Shown here: one piece after another, positions 1-7,064 of the stretch
Layout: each line of letters opens with the position of its first letter
Numbering within the stretch: the stretch's first letter is position 1
Source: Thiomonas sp.
Lineage (GTDB): Bacteria; Pseudomonadota; Gammaproteobacteria; Burkholderiales; Burkholderiaceae
Reading direction: 5' to 3'
Length of the DNA stretch: 7,064 nt
Assembly: GCA_027443745.1 (NCBI GenBank)
Contig: DAIAZB010000798.1
Location: forward strand, 1 to 7,064
Notes under the pieces: generated by a model
Database searches by the model: none
What the model was told of the DNA's origin: nothing
What the model saw: the letters and a program-made list of their open reading frames with translations, nothing else
Program-made: the position numbers and the translations under genes

Positions 1-15
1 ACCGAGGTGAATGGC

Positions 16-240
16 ATGAAGGCTGAATACGACCTGTCCAAGATGAAGTCACGTCGGAATCCGTATGCGTCAAAGCTCAAGAAGTCCGTGACCATGCGCC
101 TCTCCGAGGATGTGGTTCAGTACTTCAAAAGCATGGCCACCGAAGCAGGCGTCCCGTACCAGAGTCTCATCAATCTCTACCTCAGAGACTGCCTTGCGCA
201 GAATCGCAAGGTCGAGATCAAGTGGCCGAGTGCTGCCTAA
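16..240 (+). CDS. brnA: BrnA-type ribbon-helix-helix antitoxin
   Basis: This 74-residue protein matches the BrnA/CopG-like antitoxin family. These proteins bind and neutralise a BrnT-type RNase toxin and repress their own operon as DNA-binding dimers. The N-terminus MKAEYDLSK and the basic stretch through residue 23 are typical. The ribbon-helix-helix core runs from about residue 23 (KKSVTMRLSEDVV) to residue 60, with the conserved GVPYQSLINLYLRDC segment at 45-59. The ATG at 16 is preferred over the in-frame GTG at 7 because GAGGTGA at 4-10 sits five bases before it and the family usually starts with MKAEYD. The toxin gene should lie just left of the window and its end may overlap the first bases, but it cannot be seen. 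The stop codon TAA (238-240) lies inside the left core of a candidate attC site, so this looks like the gene of an integron cassette. Confidence 0.9.
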   Translation: MKAEYDLSKMKSRRNPYASKLKKSVTMRLSEDVVQYFKSMATEAGVPYQSLINLYLRDCLAQNRKVEIKWPSAA

Positions 241-294
241 CCCGGCGGTCAAGCGGGACTGCGCAAAAGCGCGCAGCCCCTTCCTTTGCTGGGC
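235..294 (+). other. Candidate attC recombination site 1 (after brnA)
   Basis: The site is 60 bases, the common length for attC. The left core GCCTAAC (235-241) is a perfect RYYYAAC. The arms AAGCGGGACTGCGC (251-264) and GCGCAGCCCCTT (271-282) pair over about 12 bp with extra bases at 254 and 258 on the left arm, as expected of the extrahelical bases of attC. The right core GCTGGGC (288-294) differs from GTTGGGC at one base. It includes the brnA stop codon. It has no T-run, so a plain terminator is less likely. Confidence 0.62.
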
Positions 295-334
295 AGCGCA
301 AAGCGAGTATGCGGCGCTCGGCGCGTAAGGTTGC

Positions 335-739
335 CTAGGCCTTGAACGGGTTGAGCAGCGGTACGCCAAAAGCTTTGAAGTCAGCCACGTTTCTGGTCAC
401 AACCGTCAGACCGTGAATCTTCGCTGTTGCGGCGATCATGGCATTCTCATACACCGTGTCGGACTTTCGATGCATGAGCTGGGCCCAAGCTCTGAAGGCC
501 GCTGTGTCCATCGGAAGCACGTTGTACGAAGTGGCCACCATCTCCAACCACGCTTCAATTTCTGCGGCCTTCGCCTCGTCCTGCTCGCGAGTCAGTTCAA
601 TGTCAACCTGAATCTCGCCTATGGTCACCGCAGAGAGGTGAAGTTGCATGTCCTCGAGACCTGCAAACCATGCCAGCACGGCGCGATGCGGCTTCGGCTT
701 GCGAAGCTCGGAAACGACGTTGGTGTCAAGCAGGTACAT
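335..739 (-). CDS. vapC: VapC-family PIN-domain toxin with altered active site
   Basis: This is a 134-residue PIN-domain ribonuclease toxin of the VapC/FitB type. Members use a cluster of acidic residues to bind Mg2+ or Mn2+ and cleave RNA, and are held inactive by the antitoxin encoded just upstream. The first motif LLDTNVVSELRKP gives D5 and the second motif (TIGE) gives E42. The C-terminal VVTRNVADFKAFGVPLLNP carries T115 and D120. The third acid, normally Asp three residues before IAATA, is Asn here (N99, codon AAT). This single G-to-A change may weaken catalysis. The start is ATG at 739, preceded by AGGTGAG and four spacer bases; the GTG at 748 overlaps the antitoxin stop as GTGA and is the alternative start. 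The pair points left, opposite to the surrounding cassette genes. Confidence 0.92.
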   Translation of the reverse strand: MYLLDTNVVSELRKPKPHRAVLAWFAGLEDMQLHLSAVTIGEIQVDIELTREQDEAKAAEIEAWLEMVATSYNVLPMDTAAFRAWAQLMHRKSDTVYENAMIAATAKIHGLTVVTRNVADFKAFGVPLLNPFKA

Positions 740-744
740 CAAGC

Positions 745-1002
745 TCACCTTGCGGGGACTGGCGCGCGTCTGCGAGCGTGGCCTCGGCTTGGAAGGGCAA
801 GGTCGGCGCGCCCCTGGTCAGAGAGCAGGAGTTGCTTGAGCGAGGGTCGAGCCGCAGCCTTCAAGCGCCGCCACTCATCCACAGGAACAAGTACAGCCGC
901 CTCAGAACCCCTCTTCGTCACCATTTGCGGCCCTTCGGCCAAACAAGTCTCCAGAAACTCGCTGAACCGCGCCTTGGCGTCTTGGATGGGCCATGTCTGC
1001 AT
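745..1002 (-). CDS. Phd/YefM-family antitoxin of the VapC pair
   Basis: This 85-residue antitoxin belongs to the Phd/YefM family. Its N-terminal half forms a DNA-binding dimer that represses the operon, and its C-terminal tail wraps the toxin. The signature MQTWPIQDAKARFSEFLE (1-18), PQMVTKRG (29-36) and AAVLVPVDEWRRL (39-51) are all present. The tail from residue 57 (SLKQLLLSDQGRADL, then a basic Arg/Pro-rich end) is the typical toxin-binding part of FitB-like pairs. The ATG at 1002 is chosen because GGAG stands six bases before it and the family starts at MQTWPIQDAK; a GTG at 1014 would add four residues. Its end lies five bases before the vapC ATG, so the two are translated together. Two ACTAGT palindromes directly upstream are the likely operator. 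Confidence 0.92.
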   Translation of the reverse strand: MQTWPIQDAKARFSEFLETCLAEGPQMVTKRGSEAAVLVPVDEWRRLKAAARPSLKQLLLSDQGRADLALPSRGHARRRAPVPAR

Positions 1003-1016
1003 AGGGTACTCCACAA

Positions 1017-1037
1017 TGACTAGTACGCTGACTAGTC
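1017..1037 (-). promoter_or_regulatory. Paired ACTAGT operator of the Phd/VapC operon
   Basis: TGACTAGT occurs twice in direct repeat (1017-1024 and 1029-1036), so two palindromic ACTAGT hexamers lie 12 bases apart centre to centre. The right one extends to the perfect 8-base palindrome GACTAGTC (1030-1037). They start 15 bases upstream of the antitoxin ATG. Operators of YefM-YoeB are built from two palindromes sharing a hexamer core at the same spacing, which supports autoregulation here. No convincing -35/-10 pair was identified, so the promoter itself is not placed. Confidence 0.6.
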
Positions 1038-1059
1038 TACCATCAGCACGTGCAGCGTT

Positions 1060-1191
1060 GCCGACCCCTCACTCAAGCCGAGCCCCCAAGGCCGTATGCC
1101 CGGCTGGCGCAGCCGTCCGTGTCTAGTGTCTATCATCGTTTGTGCCGACCAGGCATACGGCTTTGGGGCCGGCTGAGATCAAGCGTTGACC
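1060..1191 (+). other. Candidate attC site 2: long imperfect palindrome
   Basis: CCCCAAGGCCGTATGCC (1084-1100) pairs with 1152-1168 in 16 of 17 positions. With small bulges the similarity extends outward through CTCAAGCCG (1072-1080) and its counterpart at 1171-1182. The ends look like degenerate attC cores: GCCGACC (1060-1066) on the left, and ATCAAGC followed by GTTGACC (1185-1191) on the right. At 132 bases it would be a long attC within the known range. The central loop contains a small hairpin CGGCTGGCGCAGCCG (1101-1115) and a 7-base tandem repeat GTGTCTA (1119-1132). An unrelated inverted-repeat element is the alternative. Confidence 0.5.
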
Positions 1192-1241
1192 GCAAACAGC
1201 AGACCGCCGGGGGCGCGTTCTGCAACAAGGGAGAAGAAACC

Positions 1242-1559
1242 ATGGCTGTTCTCGCTGTCTTTACATACGAGGTCAAACCAGGCCGGATGCAAGATTTCAT
1301 GGCGAAACTCGCACAGGCTGCTGGCCCCGAGTTCCAGAGCCCGGTTATGCCCCAGGGGGTGCGCCTGTTCCGCAACACCGTCCCTGGCCCCGACACTGGT
1401 ACGGTCATCTTGCAGATCGAGTACGCGGACATGGCCGCTTATGGGGCGCGGACGGCCTACGAGAATGGCAACGCGGAGTGGCGAGTGCTATTCGCCAGCC
1501 ACCCGGACTCACCGGAGGCGCTGCTCTCGGTCCAGTTGCTGACGGAACTGACCCCATAG
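1242..1559 (+). CDS. Small dimeric alpha/beta-barrel-like protein of unknown function
   Basis: The product has 105 residues. It begins with a beta strand (AVLAVFTYEVKPGRM, residues 2-16) that leads into a helix (QDFMAKLAQAA), followed by a second strand pair (GVRLFRNTVPGP, then GTVILQIEYADM, to about residue 65) and a helix rich in Ala and Tyr (AAYGARTAYENGNAEW). This beta-alpha-beta-beta-alpha pattern and length fit the dimeric alpha/beta-barrel (ferredoxin-like) proteins, a fold shared by antibiotic-biosynthesis monooxygenases, NIPSNAP proteins and several DUF families. No catalytic residue set can be named, so a monooxygenase role should not be assumed. There is no signal peptide or membrane segment. 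The ATG is preceded by AAGGGAGA (1227-1234). The gene lies between candidate attC sites 2 and 3, as a one-gene cassette would. Confidence 0.8.
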   Translation: MAVLAVFTYEVKPGRMQDFMAKLAQAAGPEFQSPVMPQGVRLFRNTVPGPDTGTVILQIEYADMAAYGARTAYENGNAEWRVLFASHPDSPEALLSVQLLTELTP

Positions 1560-1573
1560 CTTCACCCGTTGCA

Positions 1574-1655
1574 GCCTGACAAATCACTGCACCGGACGCC
1601 ATGCTTGCGATTGCTTCACTTGTGGCGTTCGCCTGTGCGTTTCACATATCGCATG
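1574..1655 (+). other. Candidate attC site 3, right half missing or decayed
   Basis: The left end GCCTGAC (1574-1580) is RYYYAAC with one change and follows the upstream stop codon by 14 bases. The block CACTGCACCGGACG (1585-1598) resembles the equivalent parts of site 4 (GGTTGCACCCGACG) and site 6 (GGTCGCACCCGAAC). GCGA (1607-1610) can pair with TCGC (1649-1652). A matching right arm and a clear GTTRRRY core are absent; sequence turns abruptly AT-rich from about 1656, where they would be expected. GTTACAA (1658-1664) is a poor substitute. Confidence 0.45.
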
Positions 1656-1720
1656 ATGTTACAAATAATATGTATTTATAAAATATAAACGTGTATTTAA
1701 AGAGAAAAATTTAGAATTTT
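1656..1720 (+). promoter_or_regulatory. AT-rich island, possible promoter for the + strand genes
   Basis: By direct count, 1661-1720 has 8 G or C in 60 bases (13%), in sharp contrast to its GC-rich surroundings. It contains two -10-like TATAAA hexamers (1677-1682 and 1684-1689) and runs of A and T that would suit curvature or a nucleoid protein such as H-NS. No good -35 hexamer lies at 16-18 bases from either, so a specific promoter is not claimed. It lies directly upstream of the SnoaL-like gene and could drive it and the two hydrolase genes. Confidence 0.4.
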
Positions 1721-1743
1721 TGCGTCACACCAGTGAGGTCAGC

Positions 1744-2148
1744 ATGTTGAGCGACGAAGAGCAAATCCGCGCGCTTGTCCAAACATGGCAGTCTGCAACC
1801 AGCGCCGGCGATGTCGACACCGTGCTGGGCCTCATGACAGACGATGTCGTCTTTCTCGCGCCTGGTCGGCCGCCCATGCGAAAAGCAGAATTCGCCGAGC
1901 TATCTCGGGTGCCGGCCGGCAGCCAGCGCCCAAAGTTCGAGGGCATGTCGGAAATTCAGGAAATTCATGTCTCGGGGAACATGGCCTACTTGTGGACCAA
2001 ACTCTCCATCACCGTCATGCCACCAGGGGCGATCCAGCCGATCGAGCGCGCCGGGCATACGCTCACAGTCCTGCGGCGCGTCGGTGGCCAGTGGCTGCTG
2101 GCGCGAGACGCAAACCTCTTGTCGCCAGTCCAACATCCGAGCACGTGA
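1744..2148 (+). CDS. SnoaL/NTF2-like protein (YybH or SgcJ/EcaC type, DUF4440-like)
   Basis: The 134-residue protein has the cone-shaped NTF2-like fold pattern. A first helix pair (DEEQIRALVQTWQSATSAGD, about residues 4-23) is followed by the motif TVLGLMTDDVVFLAPGRPPM (26-45), and then by beta strands EIQEIHVSGNMAYLWTKLSITV and AGHTLTVLRRVGGQWLLARDANLL to the end. The last of these is a hallmark of the SgcJ/EcaC and YybH group. Such proteins bind or transform small molecules, but the substrates of this branch are mostly unknown and no function should be inferred. The ATG at 1744 is chosen because GAGG (1735-1738) lies five bases before it; a TTG at 1720 would extend into the AT-rich island. 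The stop is one base before the left core of candidate attC site 4, so this is a typical cassette layout. Confidence 0.9.
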   Translation: MLSDEEQIRALVQTWQSATSAGDVDTVLGLMTDDVVFLAPGRPPMRKAEFAELSRVPAGSQRPKFEGMSEIQEIHVSGNMAYLWTKLSITVMPPGAIQPIERAGHTLTVLRRVGGQWLLARDANLLSPVQHPST

Positions 2149-2149
2149 C

Positions 2150-2234
2150 GCCCAACCCTTGGTTGCACCCGACGTGCTACAGCGCGCCTCGCCCGCTTCC
2201 ACACGCGGGTGCCTTCAAATATTGAACGTCGTAC
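2150..2234 (+). other. Candidate attC site 4 (after the SnoaL-like gene)
   Basis: The left core GCCCAAC (2150-2156) is a perfect RYYYAAC one base after the stop codon. GCACCCGACGTG (2165-2176) pairs with CACGCGGGTGC (2202-2212) as an 11-bp stem, leaving only A2172 unpaired, like an attC extrahelical base. The right end TTGAAC followed by GTCGTAC (2228-2234) is a degenerate version of a GTTRRRY core. Length is 85 bases. Confidence 0.6.
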
Positions 2235-2265
2235 ATAGTGCTGCGCTGATTCGTGCGAGGCAAAG

Positions 2266-3081
2266 ATGCCAGTGCTCTTGAAGGGAAGTCTGCGAATCGA
2301 TCATACCGACGATGGGCAAGGGCAAGCGGTTGTCCTGATTCATAGCTCGGTGAGTGCCAACCGACAGTGGCGGGCGCTGACCGAGGTGTTGAAGGATCGC
2401 TACCGAGTCCTTGCCATCAACCTGTTCGGCTATGGGGAAACGACACCGTGGCCCGGCACCGCGCCGCAGTCGTTGTATGCACAAGCGCAGCTGGTCCTGG
2501 CGTTGTGTGAAGAACTGAACGCCCCCATCCATCTTGTCGGTCACTCCTTCGGTGGCTCGGTTGCGCTGAAGACCGCAGGACTTCTCGGGCCGCGCGTAGG
2601 CAGTTTGATCCTTGTTGAACCGAACCCCTTCTATCTGCTCAAGCAGGGCGGCCGTACGCAGGCGTTCTTGGAGTCTCGAAGCTTGCGCGATCACGTCAAG
2701 TGCTTCGGCGCGTTGGGTGATTGGGCGAAGGTCGCAGAGCGCTTTGCCGACTACTGCCTCGGAGATGGATCCTGGAGCACCATGCCGGAGAAGCGCAGAG
2801 CCGCGTTCGCGGACTCACTGCCACCGAACTTCTACGAGTGGGATGCCGTCATGGGTGAGGAAACCACTGTTGAGGAATGGAAGGAGCTGCCTGCGAGAAC
2901 GCTGGTGGTGAGTGACGCAGCGACCCGACTCCCTATTCGCGAGATCGTGGCAATATTGGCCAAGGCATGTCCTCACTGGACCTTTCACACCATCCCTGAG
3001 GGCGGACATATGGCCCCGCTCACCCGCCCGGAGCTCATCAATCCCGTCGTTCGTCAGTTCCTGGACGCTGGTGCCGCATGA
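2266..3081 (+). CDS. Alpha/beta hydrolase (AB_hydrolase_1 type)
   Basis: This is a 271-residue soluble alpha/beta-hydrolase-fold enzyme. The nucleophile elbow GHSFGG (92-97) gives Ser94 and GGHMAPLTRPE near the C-terminus gives His248. Asp217 in VVSDAATRLP, after the strand ARTLVVSD, is the likely acid. The oxyanion segment is VVLIHSSVSANRQW (22-35), with HSS where many members have HG. INLFGYGET (51-59) fills the place of the usual DxxGxGxS turn. A cap region rich in aromatic residues lies between about 120 and 200. Substrate cannot be told; esterase, lactonase or C-C hydrolase activity are all possible. There is no signal peptide. GAGG (2257-2260) stands five bases before the ATG. The gene follows candidate attC site 4 by 31 bases and is followed by site 5. 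Confidence 0.93.
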   Translation: MPVLLKGSLRIDHTDDGQGQAVVLIHSSVSANRQWRALTEVLKDRYRVLAINLFGYGETTPWPGTAPQSLYAQAQLVLALCEELNAPIHLVGHSFGGSVALKTAGLLGPRVGSLILVEPNPFYLLKQGGRTQAFLESRSLRDHVKCFGALGDWAKVAERFADYCLGDGSWSTMPEKRRAAFADSLPPNFYEWDAVMGEETTVEEWKELPARTLVVSDAATRLPIREIVAILAKACPHWTFHTIPEGGHMAPLTRPELINPVVRQFLDAGAA

Positions 3082-3093
3082 GAGGCATACGAT

Positions 3094-3224
3094 GCCCAGC
3101 AACGCGCCTGAGCGGACACACAACAGCGACACAGTAGCCTGCCTGGCGTGACGACAAACGGCACACAGTTGCATAAACTGCCCCCAGGAAATCATTTCGC
3201 TGGAGTCCGCAGAAGAACGAGGCC
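3094..3224 (+). other. Candidate attC site 5: nested imperfect hairpin
   Basis: The left core GCCCAGC (3094-3100) has one change from RYYYAAC, and CTGAGCGGAC (3108-3117) resembles an attC L box. Complementary blocks nest in order: GCGGAC 3112-3117 with GTCCGC 3205-3210, CAGCGA 3124-3129 with TCGCTG 3197-3202, CCTGG 3142-3146 with CCAGG 3184-3188, and CAGTT 3166-3170 with AACTG 3176-3180 at the tip. The right end AACGAGGC (3217-3224) looks like AACGTTAGGC lacking TT. The blocks are short, so this is the less certain of the long sites. Confidence 0.38.
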
Positions 3225-3227
3225 ATC

Positions 3228-3257
3228 ATGCGCAGATCATCGGGGGTTGGTCCATGA
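3228..3257 (+). CDS. Possible 9-codon leader peptide coupled to the second hydrolase
   Basis: An ATG at 3228 follows GAGG (3219-3222) at five bases, which is a better ribosome site than the hydrolase's own. It encodes MRRSSGVGP and stops with TGA (3255-3257) that overlaps the hydrolase ATG as ATGA. This geometry suits translational coupling by re-initiation. Short coupled frames of this kind are known to raise translation of integron cassette genes (ORF-11 in attI1). It may be a chance frame, since nine codons carry no family signal. Confidence 0.3.
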   Translation: MRRSSGVGP

Positions 3258-4156
3258 TCAAGAATGTTGAGTTTCCGTCCGAAGGGGCGACGCTTCGAGG
3301 ACTGCTGTTCTTGCCGGAGTCGCAGACCAAGAGGCTGCCGGTCGTCATCATGGCTCATGGAACGTCAGCCACGGTGACCATGGTGGCGGACAAATATGCG
3401 GAGGCGTTTTCCCGTGCCGGCCTGGCGGTTCTGCTCTACGACCACCGGAACTTCGGAAGGAGCGACGGCGAGCCACGCCAGGAGATCAATCCCTGGATTC
3501 AATGCCGAGGCTACCGTGATGCGGTGAACTTTGCCGCAAGACTGGACGAAATCGATCCCGAGCGAATCGCACTCTGGGGCGACAGCTACACCGGCGGCCA
3601 GGTCATCGTCGTCGGCGCGATCGAACAGCGAGTCAAGGCCATCGTCGCACAATGTCCGGTATTCGGTGCGGAGCCGCCAGCAGTCGAGCCGAGCAGGGCC
3701 AATTTCGACCACATCCAAGAGATCCTTTCGCGGGGTGATGTTCGTGGGTCACCCGAGACGACGGTGGGTCCCATGCCCGTTGTCTCCTTCGACCAAGTCG
3801 GCACGCCGTCGCTCCTCAAGCCGATCCAGGCGTTCCGCTGGTTCATCGACTACGGAGGCCGCGCTGGCACTCACTGGATCAACAGTGCCACGCGGGTGCT
3901 GCCGGCAACGAGCGTGCCTTACCACCCGGCGCTGTGCGCCCCCTTCGTCAAGGCGCCCACGCTGTTGATGGTCGCGCCCGAGGACGAGATGGTGCATGCC
4001 AGCTACTCGGTCGCCAGACAGGCCTACGAACTCATTCCTGGACCCAAACAGTGGTACGACATTGCTGGTGGGCATTTCGGGCTGCTCTACTGCCCAAGCG
4101 AGCTGTTCGATGAGGCAAGTCGCGTGCAAACCGAGTTTCTGACGAAATCGCTCTGA
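3254..4156 (+). CDS. Alpha/beta hydrolase, dienelactone hydrolase/YcjY-like
   Basis: This is a 300-residue serine hydrolase of the alpha/beta fold, near the YcjY/X-Pro-peptidase-like and dienelactone-hydrolase-like groups. Visible in order are an oxyanion segment VVIMAHGTSAT (30-40), YDHRNFGRSDGEPR (62-75), DPERIALWGDSYTGG (101-115) with nucleophile Ser111, a strand PTLLMVAPEDEMVH (235-248) that supplies the acid (Asp244 most likely), and AGGHFG (271-276) with His274. A long insertion between about 135 and 225 forms the cap. There is no signal peptide, so it should be cytoplasmic. The substrate is unknown. It shares little with the other hydrolase beyond the fold, so this is not a tandem duplication. 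The ATG at 3254 has GGGGG (3242-3246) upstream and may be coupled to a short leader frame. The stop lies five bases before candidate attC site 6. Confidence 0.93.
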   Translation: MIKNVEFPSEGATLRGLLFLPESQTKRLPVVIMAHGTSATVTMVADKYAEAFSRAGLAVLLYDHRNFGRSDGEPRQEINPWIQCRGYRDAVNFAARLDEIDPERIALWGDSYTGGQVIVVGAIEQRVKAIVAQCPVFGAEPPAVEPSRANFDHIQEILSRGDVRGSPETTVGPMPVVSFDQVGTPSLLKPIQAFRWFIDYGGRAGTHWINSATRVLPATSVPYHPALCAPFVKAPTLLMVAPEDEMVHASYSVARQAYELIPGPKQWYDIAGGHFGLLYCPSELFDEASRVQTEFLTKSL

Positions 4157-4161
4157 GCGAT

Positions 4162-4206
4162 GCCCAACCAGCGGTCGCACCCGAACCGGGTCACATTGCG
4201 TTCATG
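4162..4206 (+). other. Candidate attC site 6, short, at the right end of the array
   Basis: The left core GCCCAAC (4162-4168) is perfect and follows the hydrolase stop by five bases. GTCGCACCCG (4174-4183) pairs with CGGGTCAC (4187-4194) as an 8-bp stem with two bulged bases (4176 and 4178) around loop AAC. The right core GTTCATG (4200-4206) is degenerate. At 45 bases it is shorter than usual. Read on the - strand, GTTGGGC is a perfect GTTRRRY, so the orientation is not certain. The stop codon of the antitoxin on the other strand (4191-4193) lies inside it. Confidence 0.4.
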
Positions 4207-4388
4207 CGCGCGCGAACCTCCGACCAGATTGTCGCTCGCACGACCCAGGCGCGGAGTTCTGCCCGTCGGCGTAGCCGTTCCGAGGGCCAGGCCTCAGCAA
4301 CGGAATCTTTCTCGCCAGTCTCAAGGCTATGCATGAGGGCAGCAGCCACCGCGGAGCGCTCCTCGGCAGGGAGCCGAAACGCGGTCAC
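4191..4388 (-). CDS. Orphan Unstab_antitox-family antitoxin, possibly decayed
   Basis: The 65-residue product (TAFRLPAEERSAVAAALM at its start) matches the addiction-module antitoxin family that pairs with RelE/ParE-type toxins (Unstab_antitox, CHP02574-like). Family marks are LPAEERSAVAAAL, the acidic SLETGEKDSVAEAW, and the ending WSEVRARMNA. Residues between (RAWVVRATI) differ from the usual LRAG-T--(I/T)PW pattern, which suggests drift. The GTG start at 4388 overlaps the ureD stop as GTGA; an in-frame ATG at 4412 inside ureD gives about the usual family length (73 residues) and is the alternative. Neither has a clear ribosome site. The toxin should follow the antitoxin, but the next sequence is candidate attC site 6 and a convergent hydrolase gene. 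The gene is therefore an orphan and may be a remnant. Confidence 0.6.
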   Translation of the reverse strand: MTAFRLPAEERSAVAAALMHSLETGEKDSVAEAWPSERLRRRAELRAWVVRATIWSEVRARMNAM

Positions 4389-5458
4389 GTGGCCCACACC
4401 CGTGGTGGGCATGGTGGCAAGGCCCAGGCGATGGGGCGCCATGCGGACCACACCGCGCGCAGCAGCGCGGCGATGGGCTCGATGCGATGTCCCACCACCC
4501 GTACCACCACCACTTGCGCGTGCGGTGAAGTGGCGCCGCATGAGAGCGCACCAAAGCCTGTAGCGTCGGCGTCGGGTTTCCCGGATGTCCCGGATGGAAT
4601 GGGCCCATGGGGGGCTGCGTCCCGTGGCTCCAAACCTGCATGCACAGGCCTGGGCGGCACGAAGGTCAACTGGCTTCGCGGGCTGGCGGACTGACGGTTT
4701 TGCGCGAAGGTGCTCGCCTGGGCTTGTGCGATCAGGCGTGCTGCATCCAGCAGCAGGTCGCGACGCGTGGCATCGATCGGGCTGCCGGCTGCAAAGAACA
4801 GGGTGCCCATGGCCGCGTGCCTGCCCAAGCCGCCAGGGCTTTGCAGCAAGGCCTTGTCGGCGGCGGCCATGCGGCCGCGCTCCAGCCACACGCCGGGCAG
4901 TTCCAGGTGCTGCACGATATGCCCTTGCCGGAACGGCTTGCCGGCGGCGGGCAGACCCAGGGCCAGCAGGTCCCAGCCCATCATTTCGGCCCCGGGTTCG
5001 AGCGTGAACACAGCGCGGTTTTCCGCCAGGCAGGCATCGAAGGCCAGCGTTTCGAGCGGCAGACACTCCAGCCGCCCCCCGGCGCACACATGCGCCTGGA
5101 CTTTCTGTTCCGCCGACTGGCCCAGGCTGCGGTAGAAGCGGGTCGCCCCCGGTGTGGTGACGAGCGCATGCGCCTGCGCCTGCACGCTCAGATCGATGTC
5201 GATACGGTCGCCGCCCACGAGGCCGCCGGGCGGATGCACCAGCACATGATGGCAAACCCCCGGTCCTTCGGGGTAGAGCGCCGCCAGCACCCGCACCGCG
5301 CCACGGTGTTGCGCATGGCCGCTGCAGCGCCCGAGCGCTGCGGTGTAGCGCAGGTCGAGGCTGGAAGCCCAGCCGGCGCCGGCCGGTCCCGGCTGTTGCG
5401 CGGCAGGATGCACGGAGGGATGCACGGAGGGATGCGGCGCGGGCGGCTTGGCGGACAT
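4385..5458 (-). CDS. ureD: Urease accessory protein UreD
   Basis: UreD (UreH) is the scaffold that binds apo-urease and, with UreF and UreG, delivers nickel and CO2 to the active site in the cytoplasm. The conserved core is clear: PPGGLVGGDRIDIDL (76-90), TTPGATRFYRS (101-111), LPLETLAFDA (133-142), PGAEMMGWDLLALGLPA (155-171), and the C-terminal PPRVWAT (351-357), which matches the usual R(I/V)WAT end. The protein is long for the family (357 against about 270-300 residues). The excess lies in a Pro/His-rich N-terminal extension (about 1-28, with HPSVHPSVHP) and a low-complexity Ser/Pro/Gly-rich insertion at about 252-312. The start at 5458 has no good ribosome site, so a later start is possible. 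ureD usually precedes ureA; here only an antitoxin and the array follow. Confidence 0.93.
   Translation of the reverse strand: MSAKPPAPHPSVHPSVHPAAQQPGPAGAGWASSLDLRYTAALGRCSGHAQHRGAVRVLAALYPEGPGVCHHVLVHPPGGLVGGDRIDIDLSVQAQAHALVTTPGATRFYRSLGQSAEQKVQAHVCAGGRLECLPLETLAFDACLAENRAVFTLEPGAEMMGWDLLALGLPAAGKPFRQGHIVQHLELPGVWLERGRMAAADKALLQSPGGLGRHAAMGTLFFAAGSPIDATRRDLLLDAARLIAQAQASTFAQNRQSASPRSQLTFVPPRPVHAGLEPRDAAPHGPIPSGTSGKPDADATGFGALSCGATSPHAQVVVVRVVGHRIEPIAALLRAVWSAWRPIAWALPPCPPRVWAT
5406..5435. repeat. 12-base tandem repeat in the 5' end of ureD
   Basis: GGATGCACGGAG is present twice in tandem (5406-5417 and 5418-5429) and half a time more (5430-5435). On the coding strand it encodes the repeated SVHP in the UreD N-terminal extension. 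As a multiple of three, copy number changes would keep the frame. Confidence 0.85.
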
Positions 5459-5576
5459 GGGCGATGGCTACGGGCTGATTCGGCCCGGGGCTTGCTGGAA
5501 GCTGTGGACACGGGCGAGGCGTCAGCAGGCTGGAATGTGGCCCGTGTTGCGACGTGACAGGGTTTGAAATCGGGCT

Positions 5577-5598
5577 TGTGCGGAGTCATGATCGCACA
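5577..5598. promoter_or_regulatory. Inverted repeat TGTGCG-N10-CGCACA
   Basis: TGTGCG (5577-5582) and CGCACA (5593-5598) are perfect inverted repeats, with one more C-G and one G-T pair outside. The loop holds the palindrome TCATGA. It could be an operator or a hairpin in the ureD leader. No regulator family is recognised. Confidence 0.4.
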
Positions 5599-5631
5599 GG
5601 CCGAGGCCACGCCTTAACAAACTGTGACTTT

Positions 5632-5647
5632 CGTGAACCAGTTCACA
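5632..5647. promoter_or_regulatory. CRP/Vfr-like palindrome
   Basis: CGTGA-N6-TCACA (5632-5636, 5643-5647) matches the TGTGA-N6-TCACA pattern of CRP-family sites in nine of ten positions; within it GTGAAC-CA-GTTCAC is a clean dyad. It lies about 127 bases before the sensor ATG and 175 bases before the ureD start. It may serve either gene. The identification is by pattern only. Confidence 0.45.
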
Positions 5648-5675
5648 CAGCTCTGCATTTCCTTCGACAAACAGG

Positions 5676-5704
5676 CTGATTCGCCGTTGGATCGTCCCCA
5701 TAAT
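5676..5704 (+). promoter_or_regulatory. Weak sigma70-type promoter candidate for the sensor gene
   Basis: CATAAT (5699-5704) is one base from TATAAT. CTGATT (5676-5681) stands 17 bases upstream as a poor -35 (three of six positions). A start near 5711 would put the CRP-like dyad at about -71.5, a position used by class I CRP activators. This is inference. Confidence 0.3.
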
Positions 5705-5772
5705 GGAAACCACTGACGCTGTGCCCTCGCCGCATCCTGCGGCCAGGGCTCACCGCCTACTCACCGAGATTC

Positions 5773-7064
5773 ATGGACGACCCCGCCACCCTGCCGCTGC
5801 TGCCAACCGCCTCCCGGGCGGATGCCCGTGCAGCCGCGATCCGCAAGCCCTCCGCGCCAACCTTGGCGCGCCTGGGCTGGCGGCTGCTGGTGTCGGCCGC
5901 GGGCCTGTTTGCCATGCTGGTGGGGCTCTGGTTGTGGTCGTCGTGGGAAAGCACCCGGCACGACCTGGAACAGCGCAGCGAATTGACGGCGACGCTGCTG
6001 GCGGTGAATGCCCAAACCACGTTTCTGCGCATTCAGGACGATTTGCAGCAACTCGGTGACACCCTGCAAAACCGTGGTGCCCTGCAGGACCCGGTGGGCA
6101 TGCTCATCACCTTGCAGGCCTTCAAGAAGAACCATCCCGAGCTGGGCGGCGCCACAGTGTTCAGCCCTGACGGGCAAATGCTGGTCAGCACGGCCAGCCA
6201 TCTGGTGAGCAGTCTGCCCAATGTGCTGCAGGCGCCGGGCTACGCCCCCTATCACGAAGATTTCAATCTTGCCCTGGCCACGCGTGGCCTGAGCGTTGGT
6301 CGGCCCCAGTACGGGATGCTGCTCAAGCAGTGGTTCATTCCCCTGCGCTACGCCGTGCGCGGCGCTGACGACCAGGTGCGCTTCGTGGTGCAAACCAGCA
6401 TGCTGCTGGAACGCCAGCAGGCTTTGTGGCGCGGCTTGCCGACGCAGCGCGGTACGGCGATGGGTTTGTTGCGCACCGATGGCTGGTTGATCAGCCGTTA
6501 TCCCGATCAGCCCAGTGAAGTTTCCATCTATCGCCAACCTGCCCAAGGGGCGCTGATTCAAGCCTTGCGCCGTGCCGGCGATGCGCGGCGAGGCATTTAC
6601 GTCGGCACAACGGCCGATGGCGAGCAGCGCGAGGGCGCCTGGGCGCGACTGCGCGATTTGCCGATCGTCGCGTTCATTTCCACCACGCACGACGAACTGC
6701 TGCGGCTGTGGTGGGCCGATGTTCGCGCCCCGTTATTCGCCCTCGGCGGCACGCTGGCGCTGCTGATCGCAGCCTACACCTTGCTGTTGCGCAAGTTCGT
6801 GCGGCGCATGGTTCGCATCCGCCGGCAAATGGATTTCGTGCGGGCCGAGGAACTGCCCAGCAGCGGCGTGGCCGAGATCGACGCCTTGTTGCGCCAACTC
6901 GTGCGCAACCGTGAGCACATGCGCCGCTTTGCCCGCAACCGCGAAAAAACCCTGCTCGAGGCGGCACAGGCCGGGACTTACACCCGCTCCATCCATGAAG
7001 GCGTGCTGGTGGCGGTCGACTCCAGTTTCGCCCGCATGCTGCAACGTCCGGTGCGCCGCCTCAT
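5773..7064 (+). CDS. Membrane-bound Cache-type sensor protein, 3' end outside window
   Basis: An open frame of 430 codons runs off the window. Residues 1-36 are cytoplasmic and 38-56 (LLVSAAGLFAMLVGLWLWS) form the first membrane segment. About 57-319 form a periplasmic domain of double-Cache size, with the second lobe marked by MGLLRTDGWLISRYP and GIYVGTTADGEQREGAWARL. Residues 320-339 form the second membrane segment. A basic, coiled-coil-prone linker follows (340-390), and from about 391 a PAS-like start (LLEAAQAGTYTRSIHEG...DSSFARML). Proteins of this plan usually end in GGDEF and/or EAL domains (cyclic-di-GMP turnover) or a histidine kinase, but that part is not visible. The ATG is the first usable start after the in-frame stop at 5701-5703; the ribosome site is weak (GAGA at 5767). 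No HAMP consensus is clear. Confidence 0.88.
   Translation, partial: MDDPATLPLLPTASRADARAAAIRKPSAPTLARLGWRLLVSAAGLFAMLVGLWLWSSWESTRHDLEQRSELTATLLAVNAQTTFLRIQDDLQQLGDTLQNRGALQDPVGMLITLQAFKKNHPELGGATVFSPDGQMLVSTASHLVSSLPNVLQAPGYAPYHEDFNLALATRGLSVGRPQYGMLLKQWFIPLRYAVRGADDQVRFVVQTSMLLERQQALWRGLPTQRGTAMGLLRTDGWLISRYPDQPSEVSIYRQPAQGALIQALRRAGDARRGIYVGTTADGEQREGAWARLRDLPIVAFISTTHDELLRLWWADVRAPLFALGGTLALLIAAYTLLLRKFVRRMVRIRRQMDFVRAEELPSSGVAEIDALLRQLVRNREHMRRFARNREKTLLEAAQAGTYTRSIHEGVLVAVDSSFARMLQRPVRRL

Follow-up and report, generated by a model that had tools for sequence, protein, structure and literature searches.

The integrase of an integron folds the bottom strand of an attC site and cuts its right core, for which the consensus is GTTRRRY, at G|TT. 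The mechanism of attC recombination is described in part in PMC11023631, which also states that toxin-antitoxin cassettes of chromosomal integrons carry their own promoters. In PMC12444791, the integron of Xanthomonas is presented as a sedentary chromosomal integron downstream of ilvD, and a CALIN is defined as at least two attC sites with no integrase nearby. Here we describe a window of 7,064 nucleotides, i.e., the whole stretch of DNA that was analyzed, in which the left 4.2 kb is very probably the far end of a cassette array belonging to a sedentary chromosomal integron, located between converging urtE and ureD genes. The array is real and partly decayed, and it is an element of a known kind. 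No description of this locus was found in the literature searched, which is no proof that none exists, and of the papers that pair Thiomonas and integron, none was by title on a Thiomonas integron.

Materials and methods

Two covariance models of attC were built without window sequence, and the window was scanned with filters off. The first (R1), in which the pairing of the R and L boxes was assigned by us, was derived from 19 attC sites of 8 loci, in stretches of up to 20 kb beside the intI of relatives of genome G001; one of these training sites, in L117, is some 19 kb away from its intI, on the opposite strand. The R1 sites were collected with a regular expression that demanded an exact right core and found attC sites in 9 of the 20 intI-side stretches, and its looser form had no match in the window or in the ureD loci L001 and L002. 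On 22 loci (the 20 intI-side stretches, L001 and L002), R1 returned 163 matches at E 1 or better, 150 of which, the L002 site included, were used for the larger model (R2). Both models were also run, with default filters, on 70 other ureD loci (1,055,717 bases) as a control. Left halves of attC were sought with a weight matrix made from the leading 24 bases of each of 129 distinct attC sites of other genomes, L002 being left out.

Results

Gene units and complete attC sites

The six gene units of the initial annotation are present in the window. The first is a brnA-type antitoxin gene (1-240, plus strand; Pfam BrnA_antitoxin 1.1e-10, CopG_antitoxin 5.5e-10), the 5' end of which may fall outside the window, and the BrnT partner of which was not seen in the window. 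It is followed by a Phd/PIN pair that is reversed relative to the other array genes, comprising a PIN-domain toxin gene (335-739, minus strand; Pfam PIN 4.1e-14, with VapC models matching only below their cut-offs) and a Phd/YefM antitoxin gene (745-1014, minus strand; Pfam PhdYeFM 3.7e-16, and TIGR01552 over its cut-off). Next on the plus strand are the gene of a NIPSNAP-like small protein (1242-1559), which itself has no Pfam or NCBIfam match and several relatives of which carry PF07978 or the NIPSNAP name, and a SnoaL-like/DUF4440 protein gene (1744-2148; Pfam DUF4440 3.3e-15, TIGR02246 over its cut-off). It is to be noted that the sequence immediately upstream of the SnoaL-like gene (1660-1730) is very rich in A+T, and is possibly the promoter region of this cassette. 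Two alpha/beta hydrolase genes, also on the plus strand, complete the units (hydrolase 1, 2266-3081, Pfam Abhydrolase_6 3.3e-24; hydrolase 2, 3254-4156, Pfam Abhydrolase_1 6.9e-11). To their right are a short flank (4272-4320, plus strand), common to L001 from the terminal right core on (91.8% identity to L001 12901-12949), and ureD, the chromosomal neighbor of the array (4385-5458, minus strand; Pfam UreD 2e-43). Past ureD, a further gene begins at the right end of the window; its match to a Cache domain is weak and falls below the cut-off. No integrase or attI was found within the window, and no Rfam family scored above its cut-off anywhere in it.

The covariance models found three complete attC sites, all on the plus strand: R1 recovered those at 235-294 and 2150-2227, and R2 added the one at 1059-1191. 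Site 1 (235-294) has the left core GCCTAAC and the right core GCTGGGC, and scored 28.8 bits with R1 (E 7.4e-6) and 18.8 bits with R2 (E 0.0039); moreover, window positions 232-279 are 87.5% identical to an attC of the intI-linked array in genome G015 (L113). Site 2 (1059-1191) is long, with a decayed left core, TGCCGAC, a right core, GTTGACC, and an inverted repeat at 1084-1111/1141-1168; it scored 20.6 bits with R2 (E 0.0015), and only 8.2 bits with R1 (E 0.7, covering 1065-1185). Site 4 (2150-2227) extends from GCCCAAC to ATTGAAC and scored 24.0 bits with R1 (E 1.1e-4) and 27.8 bits with R2 (E 3.8e-5). In the control loci, R1 made nine matches at E 10 or better, the best of them 17.6 bits, and R2 made two, one in L040 (31.0 bits) and one in L063 (14.6 bits). 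The L040 match outscores every R2 and R1 match of the window, and may be a real attC; it is a lone match in an Aquabacterium ureD locus (808-894; R1 16.7 bits), possibly a solitary attC.

None of the three complete sites has the strict right core GTTRRRY, from which each departs at a single base; we read these departures as decay, and count them against exact membership among integron cassette arrays. When the predicted bottom-strand folds were compared with those of shuffled sequences, the z-scores were -5.7 at site 4, -3.1 at site 2 and -0.68 at site 1, i.e., clearly better than shuffles at sites 2 and 4 only. This fold test is a blunt one, since a model attC of L130 reached only z -1.29, and the attC in L002, z -3.42.

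Left halves of decayed sites

The four best places of the weight matrix on the plus strand were 235, 2150, 1574 and 4162 (22.8, 18.8, 13.4 and 10.9 bits, respectively), each of them at or just past a stop codon; the next place on this strand scored 10.0 bits, and the best on the minus strand 6.5 bits. First-order shuffles gave, per strand, 0.065 places of at least 13 bits and 0.53 places of at least 10 bits, so that the 10.9 bits at 4162 are not significant by score alone. In a test anchored at the stop codons and allowing variable spacing, brnA gave 0 of 20,000 null draws and the SnoaL-like gene a P of 0.0001, while P was 0.004 for the NIPSNAP-like gene as well as for the second hydrolase. 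On the weight-matrix ranks and these probabilities together, we conclude that left halves were kept at site 3 (1574-1597, plus strand, beginning GCCTGAC) and at site 6 (4162-4185, plus strand, beginning GCCCAAC), the last of the array. No right half was recognizable at either place. Site 3 had no covariance-model match of its own (R2 4.6 bits, E 6.4, over 1574-1752), and site 6 had none. The bottom-strand folds of four stretches, at 1574, 3092 and 4162 (two lengths), ranged from z -0.10 to +1.75. A right half of site 6 farther downstream (4162-4277) was rejected, the fold being no better than shuffles (z +1.13), as was a site 5 after the first hydrolase (about 3094), which was supported neither by the fold test nor by the stop-anchored test (P 0.23).

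Several details of the initial annotation were indeed confirmed. Its four left ends are as claimed (GCCTAAC at 235, GCCTGAC at 1574, and GCCCAAC at both 2150 and 4162); measured against the consensus RYYYAAC, the left cores at 235, 2150 and 4162 are exact, that at 1574 has one mismatch and that at 1059 is decayed, all being on the plus strand. The stop codons were said to fall within 0 to 5 bases of the left core, and they do: that of brnA lies inside GCCTAAC, that of the SnoaL-like gene at 1 base and that of the second hydrolase at 5 bases. The deviation of the right cores from GTTRRRY likewise stands for the three complete sites, at one position each. A shared block resembling TGCACC(C/G)GACG is real at sites 3 and 4, and reads CGCACCCGA at site 6. 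The imperfect palindromes assumed at all six sites were not confirmed, the fold being clearly better than shuffles at two complete sites only. The proposed cassette array itself is supported by three whole attC sites and two left halves, with no support for the site after the first hydrolase.

Junctions and probable exchange at the array end

L001 is colinear with window 4321-7064 at 91% identity. To the left of the shared flank, L001 has a methyltransferase gene, whereas the window has hydrolase 2. L001 also carries a 1.85-kb insert (11054-12901), absent from the window, at window 4320/4321 between ureD and the array flank; its genes encode a thioesterase (4HBT), a protein with a weak Polyketide_cyc2 match, and one that is TetR-like by eye. 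The candidate attC behind the methyltransferase gene of L001 reached only 14.3-14.8 bits (E 0.42-0.6), no better than the control noise. Close to the end of its contig, L002 carries a complete attC (45.4 bits), oriented as in the window and on the same side of ureD.

In two pairs of loci, the start of the shared flank coincides with the predicted integrase cut of the last attC or misses it by a few bases, as would be expected from cassette exchange. In the first pair, L002 and L113 are 96% identical over 239 bases to the right of the last attC, and the unbroken match starts two bases before the right core GTTGAGG. Beyond that point, matching positions are merely scattered through the right half of the attC, of which BLAST still counts 18 bases. 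On the L002 side, about 50 bases beyond the attC are in the sequence, and the last cassette lies outside it. In the second pair, agreement between the window and L001 starts at TAGCC, which is one base into the L001 core GTTAGCC; where this core has its first T, the window has G, and a few bases leftward also agree. To within these few bases, the alignments suggest junctions of the kind expected after the terminal cassette has been exchanged at G|TT.

The locus in related genomes

An intI of 97-100% identity was found in 3 of the 249 genomes searched, namely G001 (itself included in the search), G015 and G002, the next best being 76%. In all three, intI is open, without stops, and directly behind urtE (UrtE was identified by TIGR03410), with 24 bases between the ends of the two matches. 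In G004, G007, G022 and G023, urtE and ureD are convergent and their protein matches end 21 bases apart, and no match to the G001-type intI was found at E 1e-140 or better; G007 has integrase pieces elsewhere in its genome. G012 is without this intI, yet a remnant of the intI 3' end, 34 bases of which 29 are identical, follows urtE (L163, about 1471-1504); this genome looks as if intI had been lost and a stub left behind. In G003 and other relatives, urtE and ureD are about 10 kb apart, and the tight urtE/ureD junction is therefore not universal.

No contig was found to run from urtE through intI and the array to ureD. In G001 and G002, the array is where the intI contig as well as the ureD contig breaks off, and in the genomes of L001 and L002 an open intI follows urtE at the edge of a contig. 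In G015, urtE, intI and three attC sites are together, and ureD is 2.4 Mb off on the same 4.6-Mb contig (C3, where L161 and L113 are at about 1565557-1566453 and 3999182-4000966). Since ureD is at such a distance from the urtE-intI-array segment, the G015 genome must have been rearranged, at or near the integron; no attC match was found within 18.5 kb around its ureD. The best-named match of the G001 integrase was 'MAG: integron integrase [Thiomonas sp.]' at 91% identity, and it is on this ground that we call the lineage near Thiomonas.

Close copies of four cassette genes were rare in the relatives searched. At the thresholds used, of 199 relatives 3 had a match to the SnoaL-like gene (at most 54% identity), 17 a distant one to hydrolase 1 (at most 36%), 10 one to hydrolase 2 (at most 66%), and none one to the NIPSNAP-like gene, the search for which had no positive control. 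In databases, the SnoaL-like protein reaches 92% identity with metagenome proteins and 90% with a Halothiobacillus protein; for the NIPSNAP-like protein there is a match of 99%, which may come from the same organism. Nineteen homologue loci (SnoaL, 3 of 3 matches; hydrolase 1, 8 of 17; hydrolase 2, 8 of 12) contained no convincing attC, the best reaching 10 bits (E 2.4), and we therefore do not claim the SnoaL and hydrolase genes as cassettes elsewhere. A hydrolase 2 homologue of 63% identity was also observed in G023 (L181), a relative without the G001-type intI, elsewhere in the genome. The plasmid collection gave only weak homologues to parts of the window (60-80% identity). Gain or loss of cassettes between relatives is seen in the different unit beside the shared flank of L001, in the few or no close copies of the four genes, and in the junctions. 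The initial annotation had named, as its refutation, a lack of attC matches together with a fixed gene order in distant relatives; the outcome was the opposite, as attC matches are present and the order of the units is not fixed in the relatives seen.

Discussion

The window more likely represents the distal part of an integron whose integrase is, or once was, present, because three relatives have intI behind urtE, urtE borders ureD in four integron-free relatives, and the intI and ureD contigs of two relatives both end at the array. The genome of the window probably has the same urtE-intI start. Counted against this reading are the absence of one of the six expected attC sites, and the failure of all three complete sites to show the strict right core. 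Also against it are the lack of an integrase or attI in the window, of a contig spanning the whole locus and of a convincing attC in the 19 homologue loci, the low score of the L001 candidate, the strong R2 match in control locus L040, and the wide spacing of urtE and ureD in relatives such as G003. In the mechanism that we propose, each unit would be, or would once have been, a gene with its attC site behind it. The bottom strand of each attC would be folded by the integrase, which would cut the right core at G|TT, and new cassettes would enter at the urtE end, with the older ones being pushed toward ureD. The array orientation runs toward ureD. The decay of the right cores may reflect age at the far end of the array, and would leave the last cassettes poorly mobile. 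An extension of this idea, which we regard as doubtful, is that the tail is a locked archive, in which the oldest cassettes, toxin-antitoxin units included, can hardly be excised and have become fixed as chromosomal genes, while the upstream array is still exchanging; its basis is that sites 1 and 4 have an exact left core and a right core one base off the consensus. If this were true, the integron would be converting its far end into ordinary chromosome.

The CALIN-like nature proposed by the initial annotation is not established: there are at least two attC sites, but three relatives have intI behind urtE, and the window extends only 234 bases to the left of the first attC. A true CALIN, i.e., cassettes left after intI loss in a genome without any integrase, would fit the lack of intI in the window, the decayed right cores, and the precedent of G012, which resembles such a loss with a stub left; against it, three relatives keep this intI open, and the window stops short of the place where intI would be. 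This explanation is rather improbable, and is not the best reading.

Two further explanations carry little probability. Insertion at attG, that is, at non-classical genomic sites, is said to have been reported by Loot et al. in 2024 (as cited in PMC12444791), and single cassettes could have entered separately at such sites by ureD, in place of an array grown from attI; irregular right cores might be expected of such entries; nonetheless, several cassettes lie head to tail at one place, the relative L002 has an attC on the same side of ureD, and intI is at the opposite border of the locus in relatives, making this origin very unlikely. Even less credible is a genomic island of the ordinary kind, whose genes are unrelated and are separated by palindromes that arose by chance. 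The missing right halves of sites 3 and 6 and the unsupported site 5 would agree with it, but the covariance-model and weight-matrix results, the strand bias, the placement at stop codons and the junction alignments would not; neither would the 1.06-Mb control, in which no R1 match exceeded 17.6 bits, compared with 28.8 and 24.0 bits in the window.

Overall, the distal end of a sedentary chromosomal integron accounts best for the locus. This puts a chromosomal integron at the junction of urtE and ureD in a lineage near Thiomonas, and at this one site the relatives range from having the integron, through an apparent loss that left a stub of intI, to having none. The alignments at the array end resemble a natural record of cassettes being exchanged at the predicted cut, right at the terminus of an array. 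On the practical side, decayed attC sites can be detected through their left half beside stop codons.

Among known systems, the locus resembles a CALIN, as defined in PMC12444791, in having two or more attC sites and no integrase in the available sequence; it differs in that the sequence of the window is cut off, and relatives have an integrase at the other border of the locus. The brnA and Phd/PIN units in a cassette array are reminiscent of the toxin-antitoxin cassettes covered by PMC11023631, although here the Phd/PIN pair is reversed and BrnT is not seen. In contrast to integrons of the Xanthomonas type, as portrayed in PMC12444791, the locus has urtE and ureD for neighbors, the sequence covers its distal end only, and the right cores are decayed. 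Nevertheless, it is the sedentary chromosomal integrons of Proteobacteria, as depicted in the same paper, that the locus resembles in intI at a fixed chromosomal neighbor, cassettes with attC sites, content that varies between relatives, and loss of intI in some lineages.
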